Shown here in pieces: positions 1,963 to 34,076 of a DNA stretch of 40,328 nucleotides (its first letter is position 1; each line of letters begins with the position of its first letter). This DNA is from an uncultured Gemmatimonadota bacterium (GTDB lineage Bacteria; Gemmatimonadota; Gemmatimonadetes; Longimicrobiales; Longimicrobiaceae). The notes beneath the pieces are model-generated. The model worked only from the letters and a program-made list of their open reading frames with translations, was not told the DNA's origin and did no database searches. The DNA lies in the NCBI GenBank assembly GCA_902805735.1, contig CADCTW010000172.1:1-40328 (forward strand). Reading direction: 5' to 3'. Position numbers and translations under genes: made by a program.

Positions 1963-2033
1963 TGCCCCCTGGTGTAATGGCAGCACAGCGGTCTTTGGAA
2001 CCGTTAGTGGAGGTTCGAATCCTCCGGGGGCAA
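1963..2033 (+). tRNA. tRNA-Gln (anticodon UUG)
   Basis: A full cloverleaf can be folded. The acceptor stem TGCCCCC pairs with GGGGGCA (2026-2032). The anticodon stem is 1988-1992 with 2000-2004, around loop CTTTGGA, with anticodon TTG at 1995-1997. The T stem is GGAGG/CCTCC around TTCGAAT. The discriminator base is A2033. No CCA is encoded, so it must be added after transcription. It starts 14 bases after the ispE stop. Confidence 0.96.
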
Positions 2034-2057
2034 CTCGTGGGAACGCAACGGCGGGCC

Positions 2058-2112
2058 TCACACAGAGGCACAGAGACACGGAGGAAATCGTGTCTTTGTG
2101 CCTCTGTGTGGG
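2058..2112. repeat. Long palindrome, CACAGAG family, copy 1
   Basis: Two inverted arms made of three 8-nt units of the type ACACAGAG/GCACAGAG face each other around a short loop (about GGAAATC). One arm has diverged slightly (GTCTTTGTG). The copy lies between tRNA-Gln and the ribosome site of the downstream barrel gene. Related copies occur at 7001, 10286, 21083 and 24315, with half or worn copies elsewhere. Confidence 0.9.
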
Positions 2113-2155
2113 ATGGCAGTACCTTTTCTCATCGGAACCCCTTTTGGAGAGCTCC

Positions 2156-2779
2156 ATGCCCGTCCGTCCCATCCTCGCGGCGTCCCTCCTCGCGCTCGCC
2201 ACCGCCACCACGGTGTCCGCCCAGGACGCCGCCACGCGCTCCACGACGCGAGGCTTCCACCTGGGGGCGGCCCTTAACGGTTCCTCGATCCAGCTCTCCG
2301 ACGACGATCTCGAGGACCTTGATGTTGAGCGCGAGTCGGGCTCCGGGCTCAGCCTCTCGGCGGGCTACAACTTCACGCCGCAGTTCGGCCTCGTGTTCAA
2401 CGTGGGGGGCGCCAACATGTCCTCCGACGACGGCGACTATGCGCTCGGCCAGGCCGATTTCGGCGCGCGCTTCTCGTTCGCGAACCCCGCTCGCGCTCTG
2501 GTGCCGTACCTCGAGATCGCCTACACGGGCCTTTCGGCGCAGCAGGACGACACGGAGGTGGGCGACGTGGAGCTCGCCGGCAACGGCGTCACCGGTGCGG
2601 TGGGCCTCAACTACTTCTTCAACCCGAAGCTGGCCCTGGACGTGAACTTCCGCTACACCACGGGCGAGTTCAACACGCTGAAGATCGGCGAAGAGTCCGT
2701 GACCAACGAAGATGGGGTGGGAGTCAACACCGGCCGCTTCAACGTCGGCGTCTCCTGGTTCCCGCGCGGCGGGCGCTGA
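2156..2779 (+). CDS. Small outer-membrane beta-barrel protein (OmpA/OprF-like N-terminal barrel)
   Basis: Predicted secreted 207-residue protein. Residues 1-22 form a Sec signal peptide (basic start, Ala/Leu-rich core, cleavage after VSAQ). The mature part alternates short hydrophobic beta strands with turns, for example LSLSAGYNFTPQFGLVFNVGG, FGARFSFAN, VTGAVGLNYFF and LALDVNFRYTTG. The final strand ends in an aromatic residue near the C-terminus (FNVGVSWFP), the usual signature of BamA-inserted barrels. ATG 2156 was chosen because GGAGAG precedes it and the signal peptide begins there; starts upstream would lie in the palindrome. The precise function is unknown; an eight-stranded porin-like barrel is the likely fold. 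No partner gene is visible. Confidence 0.85.
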   Translation: MPVRPILAASLLALATATTVSAQDAATRSTTRGFHLGAALNGSSIQLSDDDLEDLDVERESGSGLSLSAGYNFTPQFGLVFNVGGANMSSDDGDYALGQADFGARFSFANPARALVPYLEIAYTGLSAQQDDTEVGDVELAGNGVTGAVGLNYFFNPKLALDVNFRYTTGEFNTLKIGEESVTNEDGVGVNTGRFNVGVSWFPRGGR

Positions 2780-3138
2780 CGCGGCGTTCCGCCCGGGCGC
2801 GAAGACGCGTGGCATCCGGACAGATCGTCCGGCTGCCCGCGGCTGCTAGGGGCTTCGCTCCGAGAAGGTTGCTCGCGAGCGGAATCCTTGCGCAGGTTGT
2901 TCGAACCCTGTACCTTTCTAGGAATCGCCGCGGCTTCGTGGTGATTGAACGTGCTGTCGTTGGTCCAGGACCAGGACGCCGGGGGGGTTTCTCCCCGGCT
3001 TCGCTCGTGAAGCTCGTCCGCGGTATCTTCCCGACGAATCCTCCGCCCTTCCTGGGCACGCGTCCGCAGTAAGCCTCTCCTCCCGCAGCACGCTCTCCGA
3101 CGAGAAAGCACCTCCCCCTGACGCCAATCGAGTCTATA
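2780..3138 (+). other. Gene-free stretch upstream of the lasso-type precursor
   Basis: I see no convincing gene here; an 87-codon frame (2809-3072) lacks a ribosome site and any family likeness. A 6-bp hairpin CCGGAC/GTCCGG at 2816-2832 might end the barrel-gene transcript but has no T tract. A possible promoter, TTGCGC at 2888 and TACCTT at 2911 with a 17-base spacer, could drive the precursor with a leader of about 220 bases. TATAAT at 3135-3140 matches a -10 box exactly but overlaps the precursor start and has no clear -35 partner. The stretch is less GC-rich than its surroundings. Confidence 0.4.
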
Positions 3139-3297
3139 ATGAACGAGTCCATGTCGTATGTGACTTCGCGTTCCCCGGCGCCGTGGGTCGCGCCCGTGGT
3201 GGAAGAGCTGGGCGCGCTCGCGGACCTGACGCTCCAGAACGGCAGCACGGGTCCCATCGAGTGCGATCCGGATTTCCCCGAGACCTGCGGGGTTTGA
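3139..3297 (+). CDS. Lasso-type RiPP precursor peptide (A gene)
   Basis: A 52-codon gene encoding a leader of about 32 residues and a core of about 20. The leader has the exact spacing of the lasso leader motif Y-x2-P-x-L-x3-G-x5-T, here W16-x2-P19-x-V21-x3-G25-x5-T31. Thr31 is therefore the penultimate leader residue and the core would start at Gln33. Glu41 is then core position 9, the normal acceptor for a nine-residue macrolactam ring (QNGSTGPIE). Cys42 and Cys50 lie in the tail (core positions 10 and 18) and could form a tail disulfide, as in class IV lasso peptides. Oddities are Gln rather than Gly at core 1, and a C-terminus Cys-Gly-Val with no Ser. Ribosome sites are weak; ATG 3151 (48 codons) is an alternative start. 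The genes for recognition, proteolysis, kinase and export follow on the same strand. Confidence 0.82.
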   Translation: MNESMSYVTSRSPAPWVAPVVEELGALADLTLQNGSTGPIECDPDFPETCGV

Positions 3298-3396
3298 GGA
3301 CCGGCGGGAGATCCGCGCCGACCCGCCGGGCGGCGCGGCCCCGCACCAGCTCCGCGCATCGCCCTCCGGCACAGGCTTTCCGGGCGATTGTAAACG

Positions 3397-3439
3397 CGCG
3401 AAAATTCCTCCCGGGCGCGCCGGGGAGGAATTTTTGCGC
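3397..3439 (+). promoter_or_regulatory. Strong hairpin between precursor and processing genes
   Basis: A 17-bp stem (3397-3413 with 3423-3439, one G-U pair) closes a 9-base loop; the 3' arm contains five T residues. It lies 100 bases after the precursor stop and 93 bases before the PqqD-like gene. Lasso clusters commonly carry a hairpin here, giving more precursor than enzyme mRNA by partial termination or RNA stabilisation. Because the T run is inside the stem, stabilisation is as likely as termination. Confidence 0.7.
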
Positions 3440-3531
3440 ATACGGCGCTCCTTGCGTCATCCTGAAGGATCCGCCACTTGTCCAGCGCTCGGGGTGACAG
3501 AAGGTTTGAGCCCTTCCCCGTGAGAATCGAC

Positions 3532-3813
3532 ATGGATCCAGCCACGACGGACCTCTCCAGGGAGGTCCTCTGCACGCGGCTCGACGACGAGATGGTGGTG
3601 CTGCACATGGGCCGCCGCAGCTACTTTCGGCTGAACTCCACCGCCACGCGCGTGTGGGAGGGCCTCGCCGCGGGAAAGAGCTCGGCGGAGATCGTGGCGG
3701 ACCTGTGCGCGACCTACGATGTCGGCGCGGAGGAGGCCGGGCGCTCGCTGGAGGCGCTGCTGGGAGACCTGGAGCGGTGCGGGCTGATCGTGCGCTCCGG
3801 CCAGAACGGGTAG
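3532..3813 (+). CDS. PqqD-like RiPP recognition protein (lasso B1)
   Basis: A 93-residue cytoplasmic PqqD-family protein whose winged-helix RRE domain binds the leader peptide and delivers it to the protease. Visible family features are a beta pair near residues 12-34 (VLCTRLDDEMVVLHMGRRSYFRLN), then N-S-T-A-T-R-V-W-E-G-L and the helix G-K-S-S-A-E-I-V-A-D-L, and a third helix ending L-L-G-D-L-E-R-C-G-L-I. Size and domain fill the whole protein, as in split B1 proteins. It starts at ATG 3532; GTG 3520 in the same frame is possible. It is four bases from the B2 gene, so the two are probably co-translated. The assignment to B1 rests on family likeness and on its neighbours. Confidence 0.92.
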   Translation: MDPATTDLSREVLCTRLDDEMVVLHMGRRSYFRLNSTATRVWEGLAAGKSSAEIVADLCATYDVGAEEAGRSLEALLGDLERCGLIVRSGQNG

Positions 3814-3817
3814 CGAG

Positions 3818-4186
3818 TTGCCCAGCCTCCTGCACGGCGTGGCGGCGGCGCTCCAGGCCCCGCTCTGGCTCCACGGCCGCGGCCTGCGGCACCTCTCCGC
3901 GCCGGCCGCGCGCGCCCGCCCCGGCGGCGACCCCGCTCCCGCGCTGAGGGCGGGGCTGCGGGCGCTGCGTCTGCTCGCCCGGCTCCCGGGCTACCGGGAC
4001 ACCTGCCTCTTCCGCAGTGTCGTGCGCATCCTGGTGCTGCGGCGGTACGGTGTGGACGCGCGCCTGCGCATCGGGGTGCGGCGCGACGGGCCCGCCGCCT
4101 CCGTGCTGGCCCACGCCTGGGTGTGGTGCCCGGAGGGCGAGGACGCCGTGGAGCCCGATTACCAGCCGCTGCAGCCCCTGTCGTGA
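3818..4186 (+). CDS. Lasso peptide leader protease B2 (transglutaminase-like)
   Basis: A 122-residue cysteine protease of the McjB C-terminal/transglutaminase-like family; it removes the leader after the residue following Thr(-2). The catalytic Cys is Cys63 in C-L-F-R-S-V-V-R-I-L, followed by the typical L-R-R-Y-G-V-D-A-R-L-R-I-G-V-R-R-D-G strand region. The catalytic His is His99 in A-H-A-W-V. The Asp of the triad is probably Asp109 or Asp114. The length matches stand-alone B2 proteins. The start is TTG at 3818, the only start near the previous stop; a GTG at 3839 is the next one. The stop overlaps the next gene by GTGA (4183-4186), so translation is probably coupled. With B1 and the precursor it forms the front half of a lasso pathway. 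Confidence 0.92.
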   Translation: MPSLLHGVAAALQAPLWLHGRGLRHLSAPAARARPGGDPAPALRAGLRALRLLARLPGYRDTCLFRSVVRILVLRRYGVDARLRIGVRRDGPAASVLAHAWVWCPEGEDAVEPDYQPLQPLS

Positions 4187-5100
4187 GCAACGCGTGGAGC
4201 CTGCTCGCGCACGGGGAGCTCCGGCTGCGCGCCGAGCCCGCGCTGGCGCCGCTGATCGAGACGTGGCTCCCCTTCTCCGCGTTCCCCGCGGACGGCGCGG
4301 ACGACGGCGCGGCCCTCCTGGAGCTCCGCGAGGGGGCGGCCGGCGCGCGCCCCGACGCGGAGCCGACCTTCCGCTTCGGCACCGCGGCCGGCTGGCTGCG
4401 GCCGGACGGGGGGGTGCAGATGTACGCGGACGGCGGCACGCTGACGGGGCTGGTGGAGCCCGGCCGCCGCCGTGCCCGCCTGCACGCCGCGGGCGCCAGC
4501 GAGAGGGAGCTTCACGACCAGGCCACCATCGCCTCCGCGCTCCTGGTGGACGGGATGGGGCGCGCGCTGCTCCACGCCGCCGCCGCGGTGGGGCCGGGCG
4601 GCGCCTGGCTCCTGGTGGGCGATTCGCACTCGGGGAAGTCCACCACCTGCGTGACGCTGGTGGATGGCGGCTGGGGCTACCTGTCCGACGACCAGGTGAT
4701 CCTCTCCGACGCGGCGGGCGCGGTGGGCGTGGAGGGATGGCCGCGCCGCTTCAACCTGGACGCGCCTCCCCCCGCGGGCCGCAGCCTGTGGCGCCGGGCC
4801 CTGGACCCGCGGGAGCACTGGCCGGGGCGCGAGCACCGCAGCGCGCCCCTCGCCGGCCTCCTCTTCCCCCGCGTGGAGGCGCAGTCGCCGACGGAGCTCA
4901 CCCGCGTGCGCCCCGCCGACGCGCTGGGCCGCCTCATCCGCGCGGCGCCGTGGCTGCTGCTGGGCGCCGCGGGCGCTTCGCGGCTGCTGGCGCTGCTGGG
5001 CGCGGCGGCGGCGGCCCCGTCGTTCTCCCTGCGGATGGGGATGGATACGTATCGCAACCCCGAGGCGCTCCTGCGCTGCCTGGAGCCCGCCGCGCGATGA
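4183..5100 (+). CDS. HPr-kinase-like peptide kinase of the lasso cluster
   Basis: A 305-residue protein with a C-terminal HprK-type P-loop kinase domain. The Walker A motif G-D-S-H-S-G-K-S-T is at residues 146-154, preceded by the family strand L-L-H-A-A-A-A-V. The following Y-L-S-D-D at 166-170 matches the metal/Asp region of HprK relatives. The first 120 residues are poorly conserved. Related kinases in some lasso clusters (ThcoK, PadeK) phosphorylate the side chain of a C-terminal Ser of the precursor. This precursor ends in Cys-Gly-Val, so the target here must differ (Ser36, Thr37 or Thr49 are the only core hydroxyl residues) or the kinase has another role. The start GTG 4183 overlaps the B2 stop. 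Function is inferred from family and position. Confidence 0.83.
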   Translation: MSNAWSLLAHGELRLRAEPALAPLIETWLPFSAFPADGADDGAALLELREGAAGARPDAEPTFRFGTAAGWLRPDGGVQMYADGGTLTGLVEPGRRRARLHAAGASERELHDQATIASALLVDGMGRALLHAAAAVGPGGAWLLVGDSHSGKSTTCVTLVDGGWGYLSDDQVILSDAAGAVGVEGWPRRFNLDAPPPAGRSLWRRALDPREHWPGREHRSAPLAGLLFPRVEAQSPTELTRVRPADALGRLIRAAPWLLLGAAGASRLLALLGAAAAAPSFSLRMGMDTYRNPEALLRCLEPAAR

Positions 5101-5215
5101 CGCGAGGTCCGCGCAAACCGCCTCGGCTCGCCGCGCCCACCGTCTCCGCGCCCCGGCCCGCGGCGCCCGGGGCCGGGCTCCCGGCGACTGATGCCCCCGC
5201 ACCTCCGGGCTCGGC

Positions 5216-6001
5216 ATGAGCCGCTACGGAGCGCGGCGGCAGGTGGAGATCGTGCGCGAGCTGATGCGGCAGGAGCGCCGCGCCCGCTCGCGGGGATCGC
5301 TGCTGGGAAGGTTCGGCGGGCTGCTCCTGCCGTTCCTGCAGACGGCCGTGTTCACCCTGCTCTTCGGCGTGCTGCTGCGGGTGCGCGGCACGCCGGCCGG
5401 CTACCTTTCCTTCGCGCTCGTCGGGATCGTGGCGTGGCGGGTCTACGCGCGCGCCCTTTCCGCGGCGGCCGGGTCGCTGCGGCGGAGCACGGTCCTTTTG
5501 CACAGCTTCCCTCTCCCCGTGCACGTGGTGGCCGCCGCCGCCGTGGGGGGAGCGTTCGGGGACGCGCTGCTCTCCGCGCCCATCGTGGCCGCGGTGGTGC
5601 TGCTGCTGGGCGCGGGGACGATGGAGCCCGCGGCGCTGCTGCTCTGGGGGAGCACCGCGTTGCTCCTGCACGCGATCGTCGCGCTGGGAGCCGGGCTCCT
5701 GCTCGCGGTGGCGGGGGCGTTCTTCTCGGATGTGGGGCGCGCGATCTCGCCGCTGCTGGCGGTGCTCCTCTTCGCCAGCCCCGTGGTCTACCCGCTTTCC
5801 GTGGTCCCCGCGCGCTGGCAGACGCTCTACCTCGCCAATCCCGTCACCGCGGCCATCGAGAGCTACCGGGCGGCGCTGCTGGGAGCCGCGCCCGCGCCCG
5901 CCTCAGGGCTGCTGGCCGCGTTCGCCGTGGCGCTGGCGACGCTGGCGGGCGGCTTCGCGCTCGCGCGCTGGTCCGACCAGCGCGTACGCGACGTGCTCTG
6001 A
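5216..6001 (+). CDS. ABC-2 type exporter permease (Wzm/TagG-like)
   Basis: A 261-residue inner-membrane protein with about six hydrophobic segments, starting with a cytoplasmic basic helix (RELMRQERRARSRGSLLGRF). The core G-L-L-L-P-F-L-Q-T-A-V-F-T-L-L-F and the late A-S-P-V-V-Y-P-L-S-V-V-P-x-x-W-Q-T-L-Y-L-A-N-P segment are hallmarks of the polysaccharide/teichoic-acid exporter family. It overlaps the ATPase gene (TGATG at 5999-6003). It begins 115 bases after the kinase, a gap in which I find no gene. By position it should export the mature peptide, although usual lasso exporters are single-chain McjD-type half transporters, not this type. Export of a glycan or lipid unrelated to the peptide is the main alternative. 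Confidence 0.88.
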   Translation: MSRYGARRQVEIVRELMRQERRARSRGSLLGRFGGLLLPFLQTAVFTLLFGVLLRVRGTPAGYLSFALVGIVAWRVYARALSAAAGSLRRSTVLLHSFPLPVHVVAAAAVGGAFGDALLSAPIVAAVVLLLGAGTMEPAALLLWGSTALLLHAIVALGAGLLLAVAGAFFSDVGRAISPLLAVLLFASPVVYPLSVVPARWQTLYLANPVTAAIESYRAALLGAAPAPASGLLAAFAVALATLAGGFALARWSDQRVRDVL

Positions 6002-6996
6002 TGCCGGCGCACGGCGGGCCCCCGGTCGTCGTCGCCGAGGCGCTGGGGAAGCGGCTCGGGGCCTCCTGGCCCGCGCGGAGGAGAGCGCCGGCGTTCGAGC
6101 TGCGGGACGTGTCCTTCGCCGTCTGGCCGGGGGAGAGCGTGGCGCTGCTAGGGCACAACGGGGCGGGGAAGACGACGCTGCTCCGCCTCTTGGCCGGCAT
6201 CTACCGCCCCAGCCGCGGCCGGGTGGCGATCCGGGGCGTCTGCTCGCCCATCATCGGCTTCACGTCCCCCTTCTCGGCCGCGCTGACTCCGCGCGAGCAC
6301 CTGCGGGGCGCGTCCGTGCTCGCCGGGCATGCGCTGGACGTGGAGGAGGCGATCCGCATCGCCGGGCTGGCGGAGCGCGCGGACCTGCCGGTGCGCCACC
6401 TTTCCACCGGCCAGCGCACGCGGCTGGGGCTGGTCGCGGGGCTGCTGACGCCCGCGGAGCTGTACCTGGTGGACGAGGGGCTGGCGGTGTGCGACGCGCC
6501 GTTCCGCACGTGGGCCGCCGGGGAGCTGCGGAGGCGCTGCGCCGCGGGGAGCGCCGTGCTCATCGCGGGCCAGGACCTGCTCTCCGCGCGGTCGCTGTGC
6601 GAGCGGGGACTGGTGATGCAGGGCGGCTCCCTGCAGCTGGACGCCGACATCGACTCCGCCATCCAGGCCGTCGGCGAAGGCACGCCCGCCGTGACAGGTG
6701 ACGCCGCCGCCGTCGAAGTGGCGGGGACCACGGTGGATGCGGACGCGCGGCTGGTCCACGTTCGCTGCCGCGTCCGCGGCGCGCCCGACGCCTACCAGCT
6801 CACCCTGGCGGTGCGCGACCCCTCCGGCACCGCCGTCTACGCGAGCCGCACGCGCATCTCCGCGCCGGCGGACCCGGTCCTCCTGATCCCCACATCCTAT
6901 CTACCCTCGGGCACCTACAGCCTGCTGATCACCCTGGCCGACGCCGCCGGCGTACCGCTCGCCACGCGCACCAGCGCCGCGCTGATCGACCTCTAA
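6001..6996 (+). CDS. ABC exporter ATPase with C-terminal Wzt-like domain
   Basis: A 331-residue ATP-binding subunit pairing with the permease just upstream. Walker A is G-H-N-G-A-G-K-T-T at 51-59, the Q-loop region holds the Wzt-like I-I-G-F-x-S-P-F-S-A-A-L-T-P-R-E-H, the ABC signature L-S-T-G-Q is at 134-138, and Walker B with its Glu is L-Y-L-V-D-E at 154-159. The H-loop His expected in S-H-D-L is Gln191 (A-G-Q-D-L), which may weaken hydrolysis. Residues 215-331 form a separate beta-rich domain similar in position to the Wzt C-terminal substrate-binding domain (ends SYLPSGTYSLLITLADAAG). It is the last gene of the cluster; the palindrome at 7001 follows four bases later. Confidence 0.88.
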   Translation: MPAHGGPPVVVAEALGKRLGASWPARRRAPAFELRDVSFAVWPGESVALLGHNGAGKTTLLRLLAGIYRPSRGRVAIRGVCSPIIGFTSPFSAALTPREHLRGASVLAGHALDVEEAIRIAGLAERADLPVRHLSTGQRTRLGLVAGLLTPAELYLVDEGLAVCDAPFRTWAAGELRRRCAAGSAVLIAGQDLLSARSLCERGLVMQGGSLQLDADIDSAIQAVGEGTPAVTGDAAAVEVAGTTVDADARLVHVRCRVRGAPDAYQLTLAVRDPSGTAVYASRTRISAPADPVLLIPTSYLPSGTYSLLITLADAAGVPLATRTSAALIDL

Positions 6997-7000
6997 AAAC

Positions 7001-7062
7001 TCACACAGAGACACAGAGGCACAGAGAAAAACCAATCTCTGTGCCTCTGTGTCTCTGTGTGA
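7001..7062. repeat. Long palindrome, CACAGAG family, copy 2 (perfect)
   Basis: Perfect 27-base arms, 7001-7027 and 7036-7062, around an 8-base loop. Each arm is three tandem 8-nt units (two ACACAGAG, one GCACAGAG) plus end bases TC and A. It sits between the ends of two convergent genes, the ABC ATPase and the small membrane protein, and could act as a two-way terminator or mRNA end. Confidence 0.95.
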
Positions 7063-7071
7063 GCCCCGCTT

Positions 7072-10285: not shown

Positions 10286-10349
10286 ATCACACAGAGACAC
10301 AGAGGCACAGAGAAAAGCGGTTCTCTGTGCCTCTGTGTCTCTGTGTGAT
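10286..10349. repeat. Long palindrome, CACAGAG family, copy 3
   Basis: Near-perfect arms of 8-nt units (10286-10314 and 10321-10349) with a six-base loop. It lies between the M16 partner stop and the ribosome site AAGGAGAG of the aminotransferase, so it separates two same-strand genes. Confidence 0.95.
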
Positions 10350-13932: not shown

Positions 13933-16900
13933 ATGCGTAACCTCGCGCTCCACCGGCTCCTGGGCCTTGCCCTACTCACCCTCGTCCCCGTTTCGGCGCA
14001 CGCGCAGCAGGCGGCCCAGGCCGCCCCGCTCCGTGGCGACGTGAACGGGGACGGTCGCGTTTCCGCGGCCGACGCGCAGGCGGTGCGCGACCACGTGGCG
14101 GGCCGTCCGGCCGCGCCGGGCATCGTGCTGCTTCCCAACGGCGACGCCAACGGCGACGGGCGGATCACGGGCGTGGACGCGGCCATGATCCAGGCATTCG
14201 CGGCGGGCCGCGACGTCAGCCGCTTCGGCGTGGGCCAGCCCATCCGGGGCGGCGGCGGCGGGGAGCAGAAGAAGAACGACAACCTGCTGGGGCTGCACGT
14301 CTGCACCATGGACGTGGAGACGAACACGCACAGCTGCGAAACGCCGCGTCCGCAGATGGGCGCCTCGGCGGACTACCTGCTGGGCAAGCCGAACGTGGCC
14401 TACGTGACCACCGGCGCCGCGAGCTCGCGCGGCAACGCGGCCGACGAGGACACCACCAGCATGAACGTGGCGGTGACCAACAACATCGGGCAGCCCATCG
14501 GCACCGTGGACGGCACCACCGCGGCGGCCAGCGGCGTGCGCGTCTTCTTCCACGACGGCCCGCGCGTGACCTCGGTGAAGAGCGGCACGCTGGCCAGCGC
14601 CACCATCCGCCTGGAAGGCACCGACGGCACGGCCGACTTCGCCGGGCCGGAGGGCGAGTTCGCCAAGACCAACAAGCCGTACTACCAGTACAACGGAGTG
14701 CTGGCGACGGGCGCCACCTCCGCGCCCAAGGGGTGGAAGTTCGTCTACTCCGCCAACACCAAGACCTTCACCTACTCGGTGCAGGTGTCGGCCCCGGTGC
14801 AGTACGAGTTCGGCCTGATCACCGTCGCGCCGGCGTCGCTGGTGCTGGGCGAGGCCGAGGCGAGCTCCGCGCTCACGCCCACCGTGCGCAACCCGCTCTT
14901 CGCGGTGGTGGACGAGGCCGTCACCTGGAGCAGCTCCAACACCGCGGTGGCCACGGTGGACGCGTCGGGCGTGGTCACGGGCGTGGCGCAGGGCACGGCC
15001 ACCATCACGGCCACCTCGCAGGTCAAGGCCCAGCGCAAGGGCTCCATCCCGGTGACGGTGGACAAGGCGCCGACCGTCGTCTCCACCGTTCCGGCCGACG
15101 AAGCGAAGCAGGTGGCGGGCACCAGCAACATCGAGATCACCTTCAGCGAGGCGGTGGACGTCACCACCTCCAGCTTCACGCTGGAGTGCCCGACCGGCAC
15201 GGCGAAGACCTTCACCGTGAGCGGCTCGGGCACGGCGACCGTCACGCTGGACCCGGACGCGGACCTGCCGGCGGGGACCATCTGCACGGTCAAGGTGATC
15301 GGAGCGCAGGTGAGCGACTCGGACACCAACGACGGGCCCAACCACCTGGCCGGCGACCGCACGTTCAGCTTCGAGGTAAACATCCAGGCGGTGGCCGACG
15401 CCTTCGGCACCACCACCACCGGCAACGTGCGGATCAACTCCGCCAGCACGTCGCCCGCGTTCAGCGTCACGGCGAACGACCAGCTCAACCCGGCCAACAC
15501 CACCATCACCTTCGCCGGCTGGAACGCGGTGGCGGGGAAGACGCAGCAGGGCGGCGACGTGGTGATGACCACCACGGGCGAGGGGATGGGGCAGTTCACC
15601 TACAACCCGCCGGCCGGCTTCGAGGGCACGGACAGCCTGGAGTACACCATCACGAGCGGCTCGGCCAGCGCCTCGGCGAAGGTGGCGCTCCCGGTGGGCG
15701 GGATGATCTGGTTCGTGAACAACGGCGGCGCCGCCTGCACCACCCGGGCCGACGGCTGCGGCCGCCTCACCAACCCGTACAGCACGCTGGCCGCCTTCCA
15801 GGCCGAGAACAACGGCACCGGGAACAACCCGGCGGCCAACGAGGCCGTCTTCATCTACCAGAGCACCACCTCCTACGCCGGGCCGGTCACGCTGCTCGCC
15901 GGGCAGAAGCTGATCGGGCAGGACGCCACCGCCACCCTCCAGGCGCTGTCGGGGATCACGCCGGCCACGGGTAGCGACGCGCTCCCGGCCATGGACGCGG
16001 CGGGCGCCGCGGTCACCCTCGCGGGCGCGGACGGGGTGAACCTGGGCACGGGCAACATGCTGCGCGGGCTCACGCTGGCCCCCACGGCGGGTGAGGCGAT
16101 CGGCGGCACCGGCTTCGGCACGCTGACGCTCTCCACCGGCACTCCGGACCTGGTCGTCAACGCGGGCGGCCAGGCGCTGTCGCTCACCACGGGCGCCATC
16201 ACCGGCACCTTCACCTCCGTGGCCTCCTCGGGCGGCACCTACAACGTGCTGCTGAGCGGCGTCACCGGCGACATCGACTTCGGCGCGGGTGCGCTCAGCG
16301 GCTCCACGGCCGGCGCCATCAAGATCGTGGGCGGCCCGCTGACGCTGGACGCGTCGGGCAACATCACGCAGGCCATCGCCGCGCCGCTGCTGGACGTGAG
16401 CGGCACGCACACGGGGACGCTCACCTTCACGGGCACGCTGAACGCCACCACGGGCACCGGCCTGCAGTTCAGCGACGCGGACGGCGTCTACAGCTTCGCC
16501 GGCACCACCACGCTGAACGGCGGCGACGCGGGCATCGACATCATCGGCGGGTCGGGCGGCACCTTCACCTTCGCCAGCGGCACGGGGGTGACCAACCCGT
16601 CGGGCGCGGCGTTCCGCGTGGCCTCCAGCACGCCGGCGGTTACCTTCAACGGCAATCTCACTAAGAGCGGCACGAGCACCGGGCTCCTGGTAGACATCAG
16701 CGACCAGTCCTCGGGGACGATCACCTTCGCCAACGGCACGCTGCAGGGCACGAGCACGAGCACTTTGAGCACGGGCATCCAGCTCTCCAACGTGGACGGC
16801 ACCGTCGCCTTCAACGGCACCACCACGCTCTCCGGCGGCGACAACGGGATCGACGTCATCGGCGGGTCGAGCGGTACGGTCACCTTCAGCGCGAACACGA

Positions 16901-18795
16901 GCATCACCAACCCGTCCGGCAACGTGGTGCAGATCGCGAACAGCGCGCCCACGTTCACCTACTCCGGCTCGTTCACCAAGACGGGCGTCAACGCCGGCAT
17001 CCTGGTGAACGCCAACACGGGCGGCACGGTGACGTTCGAGGGCGCGGGCAAGACGCGGACGCTGAACACCAACACCGGGCACGGCGTGAGCCTGACCGGC
17101 AACTCGAACACCACCGTCGACTTCAAGGACGGCGGCCTGGTGATCACCAGCACGAGCGGGAACGGCTTCAACGCCACCAGCAACAGCGGTAGCGGCACGG
17201 TGAGCGTGCGTGGTACGGGGAACACCATCACCTCGACTACCAGCGGGACGGCGCTGAACTTCCAGAACACCACGATCGGCGCGAGCGGGCTCACCTTCCA
17301 GGCGATCTCCGCCGGGAACAGCAACGGGGACCCGGACCCGGCCAACGGCATCGTGCTCAACAACACCGGGACCACGGCCGGGCTGACGGTGACGGGTACC
17401 GGTACGACCGCGGGTTCGGGTGGGACGATCCAGAACACGTCGGGTGACGGCATCCGGCTTCATTCGACGCAGAACACGTCGCTCAGCTACATGAACGTCA
17501 ACAACGCGGCGAGCACCGCCGGCGCGACGTGCACCATTCAGAGCGCATCGGACTGCAGCGCCAGTCTGGACATGGTGAGCGCCACCGGCGTCACGCTCAC
17601 GGGCCTGGTGCTCAACGGCAGCGGCCAGCAGGGGATCAGCGGCCACAACGTGACCGGACTGACGATCAAGAGCAGCCAGGTGCTCAACGCCGGCAACGGC
17701 AACGACGAGTTCGGGATGCTCTTCTCCAACCTCGCCGGCACCGTGCTCCTGCAGGACGTGACCATCGACGAGACGGAGGAGGGCGGGATCCGGCTGTACA
17801 ACAACACCGGCTCGCTCAACATGACGGTGCTCCGCGGCATCATCTCGGACAACGACCCGCTCAGCGGCAACGGCGAGGACGGGTTCCAGATGGAGATCGA
17901 GGGGTCAGCGACCGCCCGCATCCTGGTGGACGACGTGGACTTCCTCCGCACCCACCGCGATGGGATCGACGCCATCGTGGAGGGGACCAGCGGGGCGCAG
18001 CTCAACCTGACGGCGCAGAACAACTCGTTCCTGGTGAGCAACGGGTCCGGGGGCGTCACGGTGGCGGTCAACAACACGGCCAACGCCAACGTGACCGTCC
18101 ACAACAACCTGATCGAGAACACGGTCAGCAATGCGATCAACGTGGTGACGGGTGTGGAGGCAACCGCCAACCTGCGGATCACCAACAACACCATCCGACA
18201 CCCGGCGCCCCCGGCGGCGCAGATCGGCTTTGGCATCCGGCTGTCGCAGGAGGAGGAGAGCGACATGACCGCGCTGGTGTCGGGGAACAACATCAGCGGC
18301 ACCGGCTACGACCCCATCCGCGCCTTCTCGCGCTACGGCGACCTGGACACCAGCCCGGGAACGGGAGCGGGAGACTACGGCACCCTGCACCTGAGCCTGC
18401 GCGGCAACACCGCCGGCGCTCCCCTCAACCCCGCGTACGGGATCGACATCCAGGCGCAGAACGAGGAGAACCTGGTGTGCCTGGACATCGGCTTCGCCGG
18501 GTCTGCCGCCAACAACTCGAGTTTGGGCACGGGCGGCGCGCTGGGCCTGCGGGTGCGGAAGCAGAACACCAGCTCCGGCACAGGCACCGGGGTGGTTGGC
18601 TTCCAGATCGAGGGGATGCCGACCGGTGCGCAGAGCATCGCCACCACGCAGAACCACATCTACACGTACAACCCGGCGTACAGCAGCGCGACGCCCGCGA
18701 CACAGGTTCTCGCCTCCACCAGCCCGAGCGGCGGCACCTTCGACGGTGTGGGCGCCGGCACCTGCCGCGACGCCGCCACCACCCTGCTTCCCTGA
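13933..18795 (+). CDS. Giant secreted dockerin / Ig-like / beta-helix protein
   Basis: A 1620-residue secreted protein. Residues 1-24 are a signal peptide. A type I dockerin follows: two Ca-binding loops D36-x-N38-x-D40-G41..D47 and D71-x-N73-x-D75-G76..D82, each with its F helix. A Gly-rich linker (105-110) leads to a beta domain with Cys pairs, then a BIG2-like domain (about 300-363), a Big_5/SbsA-like domain (about 381-486) and a cadherin-like domain (about 490-586). From about residue 590 a right-handed beta-helix runs nearly to the end, with an internal repeat of about 105 residues. The dockerin is N-terminal, not C-terminal as in clostridial enzymes. No catalytic site is recognised; adhesion or matrix roles fit. 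The gene lies 94 bases after the cohesin-like gene and ends before a hairpin. Confidence 0.88.
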   Translation: MRNLALHRLLGLALLTLVPVSAHAQQAAQAAPLRGDVNGDGRVSAADAQAVRDHVAGRPAAPGIVLLPNGDANGDGRITGVDAAMIQAFAAGRDVSRFGVGQPIRGGGGGEQKKNDNLLGLHVCTMDVETNTHSCETPRPQMGASADYLLGKPNVAYVTTGAASSRGNAADEDTTSMNVAVTNNIGQPIGTVDGTTAAASGVRVFFHDGPRVTSVKSGTLASATIRLEGTDGTADFAGPEGEFAKTNKPYYQYNGVLATGATSAPKGWKFVYSANTKTFTYSVQVSAPVQYEFGLITVAPASLVLGEAEASSALTPTVRNPLFAVVDEAVTWSSSNTAVATVDASGVVTGVAQGTATITATSQVKAQRKGSIPVTVDKAPTVVSTVPADEAKQVAGTSNIEITFSEAVDVTTSSFTLECPTGTAKTFTVSGSGTATVTLDPDADLPAGTICTVKVIGAQVSDSDTNDGPNHLAGDRTFSFEVNIQAVADAFGTTTTGNVRINSASTSPAFSVTANDQLNPANTTITFAGWNAVAGKTQQGGDVVMTTTGEGMGQFTYNPPAGFEGTDSLEYTITSGSASASAKVALPVGGMIWFVNNGGAACTTRADGCGRLTNPYSTLAAFQAENNGTGNNPAANEAVFIYQSTTSYAGPVTLLAGQKLIGQDATATLQALSGITPATGSDALPAMDAAGAAVTLAGADGVNLGTGNMLRGLTLAPTAGEAIGGTGFGTLTLSTGTPDLVVNAGGQALSLTTGAITGTFTSVASSGGTYNVLLSGVTGDIDFGAGALSGSTAGAIKIVGGPLTLDASGNITQAIAAPLLDVSGTHTGTLTFTGTLNATTGTGLQFSDADGVYSFAGTTTLNGGDAGIDIIGGSGGTFTFASGTGVTNPSGAAFRVASSTPAVTFNGNLTKSGTSTGLLVDISDQSSGTITFANGTLQGTSTSTLSTGIQLSNVDGTVAFNGTTTLSGGDNGIDVIGGSSGTVTFSANTSITNPSGNVVQIANSAPTFTYSGSFTKTGVNAGILVNANTGGTVTFEGAGKTRTLNTNTGHGVSLTGNSNTTVDFKDGGLVITSTSGNGFNATSNSGSGTVSVRGTGNTITSTTSGTALNFQNTTIGASGLTFQAISAGNSNGDPDPANGIVLNNTGTTAGLTVTGTGTTAGSGGTIQNTSGDGIRLHSTQNTSLSYMNVNNAASTAGATCTIQSASDCSASLDMVSATGVTLTGLVLNGSGQQGISGHNVTGLTIKSSQVLNAGNGNDEFGMLFSNLAGTVLLQDVTIDETEEGGIRLYNNTGSLNMTVLRGIISDNDPLSGNGEDGFQMEIEGSATARILVDDVDFLRTHRDGIDAIVEGTSGAQLNLTAQNNSFLVSNGSGGVTVAVNNTANANVTVHNNLIENTVSNAINVVTGVEATANLRITNNTIRHPAPPAAQIGFGIRLSQEEESDMTALVSGNNISGTGYDPIRAFSRYGDLDTSPGTGAGDYGTLHLSLRGNTAGAPLNPAYGIDIQAQNEENLVCLDIGFAGSAANNSSLGTGGALGLRVRKQNTSSGTGTGVVGFQIEGMPTGAQSIATTQNHIYTYNPAYSSATPATQVLASTSPSGGTFDGVGAGTCRDAATTLLP
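16500..17040 (+). repeat. Internal coding repeat of about 315 bases in the beta-helix
   Basis: The stretch starting GGCACCACCACGCT at 16501 recurs at 16816, and protein text between them repeats with the same order (GTTTLxGGDxGIDxIGGSxGTxTF, then TNPSG, then an NxTKxG block). The period is 105 codons. It reflects duplication of beta-helix turns; a third copy is not complete. Confidence 0.7.
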
Positions 18796-18909: not shown

Positions 18910-19410
18910 ATGGCCGAACCATTCCTGAGTGAGATCAGGATCTTCTCGTTCGATTTCCCCCCCAAAGGCTGGGCTTTCTGTAATGGGCAGCTCCTGCCCA
19001 TCAACCAGAACCAGGCCCTGTTCGCCCTTCTCGGGACGACCTACGGCGGGAACGGACAGACCACGTTCGCCCTCCCCAACCTGCGGGGACAGGTCCCCAT
19101 CCACACCGGCGACGGGCACACGCTCGGAGAGAAGGCCGGGAGCTCGTCGGCCACTGTGACCCTGCAGCAGATGCCGCAACACCTGCACTTCCTGAACGCG
19201 ACCAGCGGGAACGGCACGACCACGACGCCGACGGGAAACTTCTTCGCGAAGGCGCTGAACAACTCGTACGGCGCGGCACAGGCGCTCACGCCGTTCGATC
19301 CGGCCTCGGTGTCGAGCGTGGGCGGAAGCCAGCCGCACAACAACATGATGCCCTACCTGGTGCTCAACTTCTGCATCGCGCTGCAGGGCCTCTTCCCCTC
19401 CCAGAACTGA
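18910..19410 (+). CDS. Phage tail collar domain protein (MdpB-like), paralogue 1
   Basis: A 166-residue protein with an N-terminal tail-collar domain (PF07484 type). Signature E-I-R-I-F-S-F-D-F-P-P-K-G-W-A-F-C-N-G-Q-L-L-P is followed by A-L-F-A-L-L-G-T-T-Y-G-G-N-G-Q-T-T-F-A-L-P-N-L-R-G. The C-terminal part contains H-L-H and a Q-P-H-N-N-M-x-P-Y-L-V-L-N-F-C-I-A-L-Q-G motif also conserved in the two next genes. No signal peptide is present. AGGAG precedes the start. Proteins of this type (microcystin-dependent protein family) occur as triplets in many bacteria; their function is not established. The collar fold comes from phage tail fibres, so binding of a sugar or a tail structure is a fair guess. 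Confidence 0.9.
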   Translation: MAEPFLSEIRIFSFDFPPKGWAFCNGQLLPINQNQALFALLGTTYGGNGQTTFALPNLRGQVPIHTGDGHTLGEKAGSSSATVTLQQMPQHLHFLNATSGNGTTTTPTGNFFAKALNNSYGAAQALTPFDPASVSSVGGSQPHNNMMPYLVLNFCIALQGLFPSQN

Positions 19411-19423
19411 CGGAGCCTGACCC

Positions 19424-19945
19424 ATGGCACAACCATACGTGGGCGAGATCCGGATGTTCGCCGGGAATTTCGCTCCTTACACCTGGGCGTTCTGCGACGG
19501 GCAGCAGCTCCCGATCGCCGAGAACGAGACGCTGTTCCAGCTCATCGGCACCACCTACGGCGGTGATGGCGAGTCGACCTTCAACCTGCCCAACCTGCAG
19601 AGCCGCATCCCGCTCCACATGGGCAGCGGCCCAGACGGGGTGACCTACGCGCTGGGGCAGATGGGGGGAACCGAGCATGAGACGCTCACCACGCAGCAGA
19701 TCCCCGTCCACACGCACACGATGCTGGGCTCCACGGATTTCGCGCAGCAGACCTCACCAGGCGACCTGGTGCTGGCCCGCTCCACGTCGGCCGACATCTA
19801 TGGTCCGTCGGACCCGCCGATCGCCCAGATGAACGCCGGGGCGGTGACTCCTGTGGGCGGAAGCCAGCCGCACGAGAACGCCCAGCCGTTCCTCTGCATC
19901 AACTACATCATCTCCCTGCACGGGATTTTCCCCAGCCCCACCTGA
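19424..19945 (+). CDS. Phage tail collar domain protein (MdpB-like), paralogue 2
   Basis: A 173-residue paralogue of the gene before, starting 13 bases after its stop. The collar core is G-E-I-R-M-F-A-G-N-F-A-P-Y-T-W-A-F-C-D-G-Q-Q-L-P-I and L-I-G-T-T-Y-G-G-D-G-E-S-T-F-N-L-P-N-L. A later H-T-H-T stretch and the C-terminal N-A-Q-P-F-L-C-I-N-Y-I-I-S-L-H-G-I-F-P are the paralogue-type end. The core differs from the first paralogue in the loop (AGNFAPY against SFDFPPK), suggesting the three proteins are not interchangeable and could form a hetero-oligomer. No secretion signal is seen. It is one operon with its neighbours on spacing alone. Confidence 0.9.
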   Translation: MAQPYVGEIRMFAGNFAPYTWAFCDGQQLPIAENETLFQLIGTTYGGDGESTFNLPNLQSRIPLHMGSGPDGVTYALGQMGGTEHETLTTQQIPVHTHTMLGSTDFAQQTSPGDLVLARSTSADIYGPSDPPIAQMNAGAVTPVGGSQPHENAQPFLCINYIISLHGIFPSPT

Positions 19946-19956
19946 GGAGCGCGCAC

Positions 19957-20475
19957 ATGGCCGATCCATTCGTTGCGGAGATCCGCATCTTTCCCTTCAA
20001 CTTCCCCCCCAAGGGGTGGGCCTTCTGCAACGGCCAGATCATGCCGCTCTCGCAGAACACCGCCCTGTTCGCCCTCCTGGGCACCGTCTACGGTGGAGAC
20101 GGGAAGAGCACCTTCGCGCTCCCTAATCTACAGGGGAGCGCCGCTATGCACCCGGGACAGGGCCAGGGGCTGAGCCTGCGCGACCTGGGTGAGATCGGAG
20201 GCGCCGAGTCCGTCACGCTGCTCATCTCGGAGATTCCCGTCCATACCCACAGTATGTCCGCGCAGACGCTGGCCGGTGACCAGACGATCCCCACCGGGAC
20301 GCTGCCCGCGACATCTCCCGGCGACAACCTGTACGCGCCGTCGGGTGCCATGGTGACGATGGCGCCGCAGGCGCTGCCGCCGGCCGGGGGGAGCCTGCCG
20401 CACAACAACATGCAGCCGTACCTGACGCTGAACTTCAACATCGCCTTGCAGGGCATCTTCCCGCCCCGGGGGTGA
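19957..20475 (+). CDS. Phage tail collar domain protein (MdpB-like), paralogue 3
   Basis: A 172-residue third paralogue, 11 bases after the second, with GAGGAG as ribosome site. It is closer to the first (F-N-F-P-P-K-G-W-A-F-C-N-G-Q-I-M-P and L-L-G-T-V-Y-G-G-D-G-K-S-T-F-A-L-P-N-L-Q-G) than to the second. It keeps H-T-H-S and L-P-H-N-N-M-Q-P-Y-L-T-L-N-F-N-I-A-L-Q-G-I-F-P. Its stop is followed by a strong hairpin, so the triplet is probably one mRNA. The function is as open as for the other two. Confidence 0.9.
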   Translation: MADPFVAEIRIFPFNFPPKGWAFCNGQIMPLSQNTALFALLGTVYGGDGKSTFALPNLQGSAAMHPGQGQGLSLRDLGEIGGAESVTLLISEIPVHTHSMSAQTLAGDQTIPTGTLPATSPGDNLYAPSGAMVTMAPQALPPAGGSLPHNNMQPYLTLNFNIALQGIFPPRG

Positions 20476-21082: not shown

Positions 21083-21156
21083 CAGGGGTCACACAGAGAC
21101 ACAGAGGCACAGAGAAGAAGTGACCTCTGTGCCTCCGTGTCTCCGTGTGACCCCTG
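21083..21156. repeat. Long palindrome, CACAGAG family, copy 4 (extended)
   Basis: The arms are longer than usual: the family core is flanked by CAGGGG/CCCCTG, so the complete palindrome runs over 74 bases. A few bases differ between arms (CACAGAG against CTCCGTG). It ends just before the AT-rich promoter region at 21157. Confidence 0.95.
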
Positions 21157-24314: not shown

Positions 24315-24376
24315 TCACACAGAGACACAGAGGCACAGAGACGACTTCATCTCTGTGCCTCTGTGTCTCTGTGTGA
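24315..24376. repeat. Long palindrome, CACAGAG family, copy 5 (perfect)
   Basis: Perfect 27-base arms (24315-24341 and 24350-24376), identical in sequence to those at 7001, with a different 8-base loop. It lies between convergent genes (beta-helix on plus, DUF6916 on minus). Confidence 0.95.
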
Positions 24377-24389
24377 GACCCCTTTTGGG

Positions 24390-33539: not shown

Positions 33540-34076
33540 GTGCCTCGTTCTCGGAAGTGGACGGACCCCCAGATGGCCGACGCCGTCATGTCGTCGGCGT
33601 CCATCCGGCAGGTCCTTATCGCGCTCGGCCTCAACGCCACCGGCGCGAACTACCAGTCCGTCCACGGGGCCGTCGCGCGCCTGCAACTGGACACCAGCCA
33701 CTGGACGGGACAGGCGCACCTTCGCGGCAAGACCCACAGCTATCACACGCCGATCCCGCTGTCGGAGATCTGCGTCTCGAACAGTACGTATACCAACACT
33801 TCGTCACTGAAACTCCGCCTTCTCAAGGAAGGCGCAATGGAGGAGAAGTGTGCTGTCTGCGGGATCACTCACTGGCTCGGTGAGAAGCTCTCGCTTGTTC
33901 TCGATCATATCAACGGCGAGAACCGGGACCATCGGCTGGAGAACCTTCGTCTCCTTTGTCCGAACTGCAACTCGATTCAGCCCACCTTAGCCGGCCGAAA
34001 TAAGGCGTTGCGTTTCAAAGGACCACGTCGCCGGCAACGGCGAGGCTCACACAGAGACACGGAGGCACAGAGATGA
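33540..34076 (+). CDS. HNH endonuclease, probably mobile
   Basis: A 178-residue HNH nuclease. Residues 1-95 match the usual N-terminal DNA-binding part of this group (S-I-R-Q-V-L-I-A-L-G-L-N-A-T-G-A-N-Y, then L-D-T-S-H-W-T-G-Q). The nuclease core is zinc pair Cys104/Cys107, D-H at 122-123, N-G-E-N-R-D-H-R-x-E-N-L, and zinc pair Cys140/Cys143. Codon use is visibly less GC-rich than neighbours, and the gene begins 43 bases after tRNA-Leu, both signs of a horizontally gained homing-type nuclease. The start is GTG 33540. The last residues (GSHRDTEAQR) and the stop are within a worn palindrome, so the original C-terminus may have been lost. Confidence 0.87.
   Translation: MPRSRKWTDPQMADAVMSSASIRQVLIALGLNATGANYQSVHGAVARLQLDTSHWTGQAHLRGKTHSYHTPIPLSEICVSNSTYTNTSSLKLRLLKEGAMEEKCAVCGITHWLGEKLSLVLDHINGENRDHRLENLRLLCPNCNSIQPTLAGRNKALRFKGPRRRQRRGSHRDTEAQR

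Follow-up and report, generated by a model that had tools for sequence, protein, structure and literature searches.

The gene cluster at positions 3139-6996 of contig CADCTW010000172.1, which originates from an uncultured Gemmatimonadota bacterium of the Longimicrobiaceae, raises the question of what is made by a peptide pathway that has the front end of lasso biosynthesis and no macrolactam cyclase. The whole contig, 40,328 bases long, was analyzed and is hereafter called the window. As the first-pass annotation of this DNA had described, the cluster comprises a precursor gene, B1 (a PqqD-type recognition element, RRE, for ribosomally synthesized and post-translationally modified peptides, RiPPs), B2 (a transglutaminase-like leader protease), an HprK-like kinase, and a two-gene exporter of permease and ATPase, all on the plus strand. 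It had offered three ways out of the missing cyclase, namely an enzyme acting in trans, ring closure by another protein such as the kinase, or a cleaved and phosphorylated peptide without a lasso, and the last of these proved to be the best supported. The cluster probably belongs, as a divergent branch, to a group of Gemmatimonadota RiPP loci that employ the lasso front end in the absence of the cyclase, yielding a phosphorylated non-lasso peptide.

The reported absence of a cyclase held up in a search with eight cyclases taken from loci of the host's bacterial family that possess the enzyme. At a threshold of E 1e-4, no match was obtained in the window or in the 28 related loci searched with it (29 loci and 449,597 bases in total, not all independent, as L032 overlaps L033 and L043 overlaps L173), and the same search recovered the enzyme from all 13 control loci, eight of which were sources of the queries and five of which were not. 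The intergenic gaps of 222 bases (3298-3519) and 115 bases (5101-5215) leave no room for a cyclase within the cluster. Neither PF00733 nor the NCBIfam cyclase model NF033535 matched the window contig, and a cyclase remnant in the window was rejected, the best match of the eight cyclases (E 0.058) lying at 38.4 kb, far from the cluster. The genome-wide search that the first-pass annotation had proposed recognized no lasso cyclase in the host assembly. Only two full-length asparagine (Asn) synthase-like proteins were found there, and both begin with MCG, an N-terminus typical of glutamine-dependent synthetases, for which reason they were rejected as lasso cyclases. The Asn-synthase-like gene of L002 adjoins what we take to be an aminotransferase-like gene. 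Of two further weak Asn-synthase matches, in L003 and L004, the latter presumably reflects a tRNA-thiouridylase-like protein. As the host assembly is 86% complete and divided into 254 contigs, this genome alone cannot settle the absence. When NF033535 was applied to 18 genomes, nothing was matched on the contigs bearing the B1/B2/kinase loci of nine fragmented genomes, and in the single-contig genome G045 its sole match was an MCG-type protein located 2.9 Mb away along the record. The absence of the cyclase looks old, not a recent loss.

Judged by their sequences, the window B1, B2, and kinase group with the cyclase-free set, B1 and B2 away from the lasso clusters of the same bacterial family, so that the lasso-type origin assumed in the first-pass annotation was not upheld. 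In the combined B1 and B2 tree, which held eight of the 11 lasso-labelled loci (L112, L116, and L117 were left out), the window was placed with 13 cyclase-free loci (support 97/95) and apart from the eight lasso loci, with L044, L167, and L174 outside both groups. The B2-only tree, built from all 31 loci, likewise placed it inside the cyclase-free group (95/82), and in the kinase tree (26 of 35 loci, excluding L045, L046, L048, L099, L106, L107, L114, L170, and L172) the window enzyme was sister to eight same-family kinases from cyclase-free loci (86/89). The B2 active-site motif reads TCLFRSV in the window and TCLYRSV in most of the cyclase-free group, as against VCLEQSL in five lasso loci with YxxP leaders.

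The individual proteins retained the features expected of their families. B1 matched PF05402 (PqqD, E 7e-18) and NF033530 (E 3e-14). B2 scored above the cut-offs of both PF13471 (54 bits) and lasso_biosyn_B2 (NF033537, 54.4 bits), and the alignment showed its catalytic Cys (TCLFRS) and His (AHAWV) to be kept; a phmmer search of B2 against solved structures gave no match. The kinase alone matched HprK_rel_A with E 1e-8, which is under the cut-off of that model, and a profile built from 15 kinase relatives matched HprK structures (1jb1, E 2.6e-5); none of the 15 deviates at the His, P-loop Lys, or DD positions. Relatives of the kinase were detected in 16 of 61 genomes (the host and 60 relatives, E 1e-3) and in 43 of 395 genomes sampled across the phylum (E 1e-15), seven of them outside the host's bacterial family at E <1e-80. 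All frames of the cluster are open, and all were picked by the simple custom codon-usage gene caller that was also used to predict the genes around the related loci.

The leader of the precursor, WVAPVVEELGALADLTL, fits the WxxPx[VIL]xxLxxLxxLTL type of the loci that combine a radical S-adenosylmethionine (SAM) protein with B1, B2, and the HprK-like kinase, and its score against the NCBI model lasso_leader_L3 (17.5 bits, E 0.003) was slightly below the 19-bit cut-off. The leader motif [WF]xxPx[VIL]xx[LMA]xxLxx[LI]TL has a single occurrence in the window, that in the precursor, and is present in 20 of 26 related loci; it was found neither in 300 first-order Markov windows nor in 120,796 bases of flank loci or 165,742 bases of lasso/Asn-synthase loci. 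With this motif, 23 distinct precursors were collected, many of them related and not 23 independent cases, and the short F-type precursor of L033, whose leader spacing differs, stands outside this number. The aromatic residue was Trp in 19 and Phe in four, and never Tyr even when the motif allowed it. Cores were numbered from a presumed cut after Thr-Leu, modelled on the Thr that precedes the cleavage site in lasso leaders; on this numbering, Ser or Thr occurred at positions 2-4 of all 23 cores and Gly1 in none; Asp or Glu was absent from 11 cores and stood at positions 7-9 in six. The window core, which has Gln1, Ser4, and Glu9, starts with QNGSTGPI, similar to QTGSPI of L162, and carries two Cys residues in its tail instead of a Gly-rich end. 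A universal Ser/Thr at the fourth position from the C-terminus, which held in the first set, failed in the W-type precursors of L168, L170, and L040 and is not claimed.

As a comparison set, 11 canonical lasso precursors from six loci (L108-L112 and L117) uniformly combined YxxP, Thr-x-Gly, and Asp/Glu at place 8, their Gly1 following from the Thr-x-Gly rule used to set the core start. Outside these 11 are the second, near-identical peptide of L112 and the precursors encoded in L106, L107, and L099. When the rule was applied to them later, the L112 peptide fitted, whereas the L106 and L107 precursors, which have WHTP leaders and belong to cyclase loci, and one of the two YxxP precursors of L099 lack Thr-x-Gly; the other L099 precursor gave a Gly core with Asp at about 9, not 8. 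In both L106 (genome G006) and L107 (genome G005), the WxxP precursor is accompanied by the cyclase, B1, B2, and a weak match to HprK-like kinases, an arrangement somewhat like that of paeninodin, and both genomes also carry a cyclase-free cluster.

The usual modifying enzyme of the cyclase-free set is a radical SAM protein. Among the 11 loci that have B1 and the kinase and are uncut by a contig end (L029, L030, L031, L032, L034, L043/L173, L161, L162, L164, L165, and the window), ten encode it and the window is the exception; L035, L036, L037, L160, L163, and L172 are cut and were not counted, and in the trees L160, L163, and L172 bear the radical-SAM label on contigs too short to show such a gene. 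These proteins (331-357 aa) form one family, each with 52-100% identity to one of three queries, and five of them were aligned. In L162, B1 and the kinase are present and no B2 was found. A radical SAM gene of 36% identity is also present in the distant L044 (G016:C22), next to PqqD, B2-like, and kinase genes, and the motif search gave no precursor there. At E 1e-20, the enzyme was detected in 11 of the 61 genomes and was missing from three that possess B1, B2, and the kinase, namely G000, G002, and G015. A radical SAM gene of the A1 type was absent from the window and from the host assembly, where the best match showed 25% identity (E 1.5e-7). As G002 (98% complete) and G015 (93% complete) also lacked a match, the window may not be the sole case, and it is the only locus without the enzyme that was seen complete. 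In G005, a second radical SAM gene stands beside a precursor (L168), and the 19 kb read there gave no match to B1, B2, or the kinase.

Several other genes were noted around these loci. Between the radical SAM gene and B1 of L031 (10630-11991), a lipoprotein-like protein with WD40-like propeller repeats is encoded, which matched TolB and the lasso isopeptidase model weakly and below their cut-offs. Secreted proteins lie beside kinase or radical SAM loci in L033 (4569-6729), L034 (5790-6938), and L038 (4619-6760), the first two combining YadA-head repeats with an endosialidase-chaperone domain (Pfam, one each) and the third assigned by likeness, and they are accompanied by proteins of about 590 aa that matched nothing in Pfam. 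Near the clusters of L031 (6851-7673) and L030 (5131-5665), tandem small Cys-containing proteins of 74-76 aa are encoded, the signal-like N-terminal stretches of which are nearly identical.

Kinase and precursor were also found together without B1 or B2 nearby. Six kinase loci (L033, L038, L039, L040, L041, and L042) have a precursor and no B1 or B2 match in the stretch read, that of L040 being cut 1.5 kb from the kinase; L042 additionally contains a radical SAM gene and two W-type precursors. All six genomes also carry a B1/B2/kinase locus. L033 and the B1/B2 genes of L032 share a contig, about 13 kb apart, and in the host the kinase and precursor of L040 are on contig C83 and the B1/B2/kinase locus is in the window. 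This co-occurrence is most simply read as several precursors being served by a single B1/B2 pair. The cores beside such kinases may be as short as five to eight residues, as in LGGSL (L038, 8680-8748), ISGGF (L042, 8705-8773), and QLSGGGGL (L039, 8681-8758). Directly after the host's second precursor, an RCC1-repeat protein is encoded (L040, 3245-4948).

The genomic setting of the cluster (Table 1) bears on its history. The closest relatives are homologous to the window as far as the 3' end of the tRNA-Gln gene and again from 7071 onward; the cluster lies within an accessory segment of 5.0 kb enclosed on both sides by flanks common to relatives (the sequence past the contig ends was unreadable). 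The same interval measures about 0.24 kb (~240 bases) in G004 and about 1.3 kb, with another open reading frame, in G006. No integrase-like gene was found among the genes called in the segment. That the entire segment is accessory argues against the recent deletion of a cyclase from a conserved site, which the first-pass annotation had considered together with decay of the remaining genes; against decay speak the open frames and the retained catalytic motifs. Imperfect palindromes with ACACAGAGGCACAGAG arms, the longest of about 62 bases, are dispersed over the window at 2058-2109, 7001-7062, 10287-10348, 21089-21150, 24315-24377, and 34044-34074, two of them close to the segment borders, and are present on contig C83 as well. 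The terminator-like stem between precursor and B1 is a consensus match only, two having been found in the region where 1.1 were expected.

Conservation in relatives extends to B1, B2, and the kinase, which recur without a cyclase, and does not extend to the exporter that the first-pass annotation had counted with them. No permease match was obtained in the 19 other related loci scanned, on which ground the exporter was rejected as a member of the conserved gene set, and ATPase-domain matches were found only in L045 and L046 among them. The exporter is of the polysaccharide/O-antigen type: the best NCBIfam models of the permease are polysaccharide-export models, all under cut-off, its relatives outside the related loci show 24-36% identity, and the ATPase has a C-terminal extension of about 100 aa without a Pfam match. 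Elsewhere in the window, a protein of 1620 aa in which a dockerin domain is combined with several bacterial Ig domains (13933-18795) and three tandem proteins of similar sequence (18910-20475), the first of which matches the phage tail-collar domain PF07484, were observed.

Table 1. Positions of the cluster genes and adjoining features in the window.
Feature	Position	Strand	Remarks
tRNA-Gln(TTG)	1963..2034	+	left border of inserted segment
Accessory segment, 5.0 kb	2035..7070	.	blastn and synteny
Outer-membrane beta-barrel protein, 207 aa	2156..2779	+	inside accessory segment; PF13505 E 8e-16
Precursor peptide, 52 aa	3139..3297	+	leader ends with WVAPVVEELGALADLTL (to 3234)
Proposed core QNGSTGPIECDPDFPETCGV	3235-3294	+	part of precursor
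Core Ser4-Thr5, proposed phosphate acceptors	3244..3249	+	suggested by the family Ser/Thr pattern and Ser3 of linear polyphosphorylated peptides (PMC13381572)
22-base inverted repeat with terminator-like stem and T run	3396..3439	+	between precursor and B1
B1, PqqD-type RRE, 97 aa	3520..3813	+	GTG start; frame opens at 3466
B2, transglutaminase-like leader protease	3818..4186	+	start uncertain
HprK-like kinase, 305 aa	4183..5100	+	His131, GDSHSGKST, and SDD kept
ABC-2 permease, polysaccharide-export type	5216..6001	+	PF01061 E 6e-16
ABC ATPase	6001..6996	+	closest solved matches are O-antigen/lipopolysaccharide exporter ATPases

Among known systems, the closest parallel is provided by the linear polyphosphorylated peptides (LPPs) of Bacillota, published in 2026 with the lpp cluster of Paenibacillus alginolyticus (PMC13381572). 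According to that report, an RRE, an HprK-like kinase, and a signal-peptidase-like enzyme yield, without a cyclase, a linear peptide bearing several phosphates on Ser3, the final product not having been identified by its authors. The view of the first-pass annotation that all three of its options would be new was therefore too strong, since clusters with an RRE and an HprK kinase and without a cyclase had been published, albeit from a different phylum and with a different leader peptidase. LPP clusters share with the window a precursor with a [Y/W]xxP leader, a discrete RRE, the HprK-like kinase, an exporter, the lack of a macrolactam cyclase, a phospho-acceptor near the core start, and often a location near polysaccharide loci. 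Their own features are the signal-peptidase-like LppS, an NTP (nucleoside triphosphate) transferase, an MsbA-like pump, a YxxPxVLxHQxIxFET leader, and occurrence in Bacillota, whereas the window has the cysteine protease B2, a WxxP leader ending in LTL, and a Wzm/Wzt-type pair in a Gemmatimonadota genome, and most of its uncut relatives include the radical SAM enzyme. Two LPP features were tested directly. Pfam and NCBIfam scans of the six proteins encoded at 3139-6996 found no SipW/SpI-like leader peptidase, a search that did not extend to the remainder of the genome, and the window leader does not fit the LPP leader motif; the cluster was therefore not filed as an LPP.

Paeninodin-type lasso clusters, described in the same report as A, C, B1, and B2 genes plus the kinase (PMC13381572), share with the window the WxxP leader, B1, B2, and the HprK-like kinase, and differ in the cyclase, which the window lacks, and in the ring-forming Asp/Glu, which the 11 cores mentioned above do not have. 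The canonical lasso clusters of the same bacterial family (L108-L113 and L117) resemble it in the separate B1 and B2, the aromatic-xxP leader, and the Thr before the proposed cut, and differ in their cyclase of 603-684 aa and, in the precursors scored, in YxxP and Asp/Glu at place 8. The SynChlorMet and HPr-rel-A systems (TIGR04248-04251 and TIGR04352-04353) also combine, by their model names, a PqqD-like protein with an HprK-like kinase, and SynChlorMet a radical SAM protein in addition; all matches to these models were weak and below the curated cut-offs. To our knowledge, neither system has B2. A literature search found no paper on SynChlorMet, and a search by title and abstract, with subscription papers largely outside its coverage, found no cluster that unites B2 or an HprK kinase with a radical SAM protein, and none in Gemmatimonadota. 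On the best reading, the window belongs with cyclase-free RRE/HprK phosphopeptide clusters and is neither an LPP nor a lasso cluster.

From the observed gene content, cyclase-free relatives, B1/B2 grouping, catalytic motifs, and precursor pattern, a route to the product can be proposed. B1 would bind the WxxP leader, and the kinase would phosphorylate a Ser or Thr near the core start, here probably Ser4 or Thr5. B2 would then cut after the Thr-Leu that closes the leader, and the neighbouring ABC pair would presumably export a phosphorylated non-lasso peptide, possibly with a Cys10-Cys18 disulfide. In most uncut relatives, the radical SAM protein would act as well, presumably on the Gly-rich core.

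Several observations weigh against this assignment. In the B1-only tree (32 of 34 loci, without L099 and L104), the window was sister to, and not inside, the radical SAM types (93/94), its branches in the trees are long, and the cyclase-bearing L106, L107, and L116 join the same 19-row B2 clade as the window; the alignment also showed that the window B2 has lost the NED-like motif seen in B2s of lasso loci with YxxP leaders. Glu9, counted from the proposed cut, could be used by a lasso ring, and five of the 22 other cores likewise carry Asp/Glu at 7-9. Many family cores have Thr2, although LppK did not accept Thr at its site (PMC13381572). Among eight more distant kinase-match loci, outside the 29, L045 contains a cyclase (E 2e-99) and L020 a weak match (6e-5), with no match in L027, L046, L048, L166, L167, and L174. 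The incompleteness of the host assembly has to be added to these points, and it also leaves room for a rather unlikely variant in which a radical SAM enzyme encoded in the unassembled part serves the window precursor too, giving a radical-SAM-modified phosphopeptide as in the relatives. Such a variant would accord with the enzyme's presence in ten of 11 loci, with L168, where precursor and enzyme stand apart from B1, B2, and the kinase, and with the likeness of the window core start to that of L162; the lack of a host match at E 1e-20, the two nearly complete genomes G002 and G015 that have B1, B2, and the kinase without the enzyme, and the Cys-containing tail in place of the Gly-rich STV-type tail argue against it. 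The long branch, the missing enzyme, and the inserted segment beside a tRNA gene would also fit a decaying remnant that makes nothing since the loss of the radical SAM gene; with every frame open and picked by the codon-usage caller, and the B2 and kinase motifs kept, we consider this quite improbable.

A true lasso peptide formed by a cyclase in trans is very improbable. Glu9 and the Cys pair would suit a nine-residue ring with a disulfide, and a B2-like protein truncated where contig C32 ends (L114) could come from a lasso cluster with an unassembled cyclase. L099 (G015:C163) and L104 (G002:C93) are further loci that pair a cyclase-like protein with a PqqD-type B1 and have no B2 match alongside, the sole PF13471 match in either genome being the B2 of the cyclase-free cluster. 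On the other side stand the lack of a recognized lasso cyclase in the host and of NF033535 matches on the related contigs of the nine genomes, the 11 cores devoid of Asp/Glu, the Gln that opens the window core, and the WxxP leader as against YxxP in all 11 scored lasso precursors. Ring closure by the kinase itself, through an acyl phosphate on a side-chain carboxylate, is exceedingly improbable: it was reasoned in the first-pass annotation and finds a candidate residue in Glu9, but the kinase-adjacent precursors of L030, L031, L032, L038, L039, and L042 contain no Asp or Glu at all, leaving closure on these residues unsupported, and the kinase motifs are those of HprK-type Ser kinases, although the C-terminal carboxylate might conceivably be activated. 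A phosphorylated non-lasso peptide is the product that we favour for the window.

It is quite possible, as a tentative proposal, that these loci constitute a separate Gemmatimonadota RiPP class, in which a WxxP precursor is handed by a lasso-type RRE to a radical SAM protein, an HprK-like kinase, and B2 in the absence of a cyclase, and in which the single B1/B2 pair of a genome acts in trans on precursors encoded with a kinase at scattered loci, some having five-residue cores. Within such a class, the window would represent a lineage that works without the radical SAM step, and the choice of Trp or Tyr in the leader would act as a code separating the class from lasso pathways in the same cell. 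Tyr leaders accompanied canonical lasso clusters and Trp or Phe leaders cyclase-free ones, apart from L106 and L107, which is the reverse of the pairing reported for Bacilli, where leader Trp directs RRE choice to paeninodins and Tyr to LPPs (PMC13381572). The RRE leader-discrimination model thereby becomes testable in another phylum with the assignment reversed. More generally, B1 and B2, the usual lasso markers, are indicated to serve a conserved cyclase-free pathway as well, so that lasso calls made from B1/B2 alone would mislabel such loci. After the LPPs, this would be a second phosphopeptide pathway built on a lasso front end, and B2 gains a possible partner in the radical SAM enzyme.

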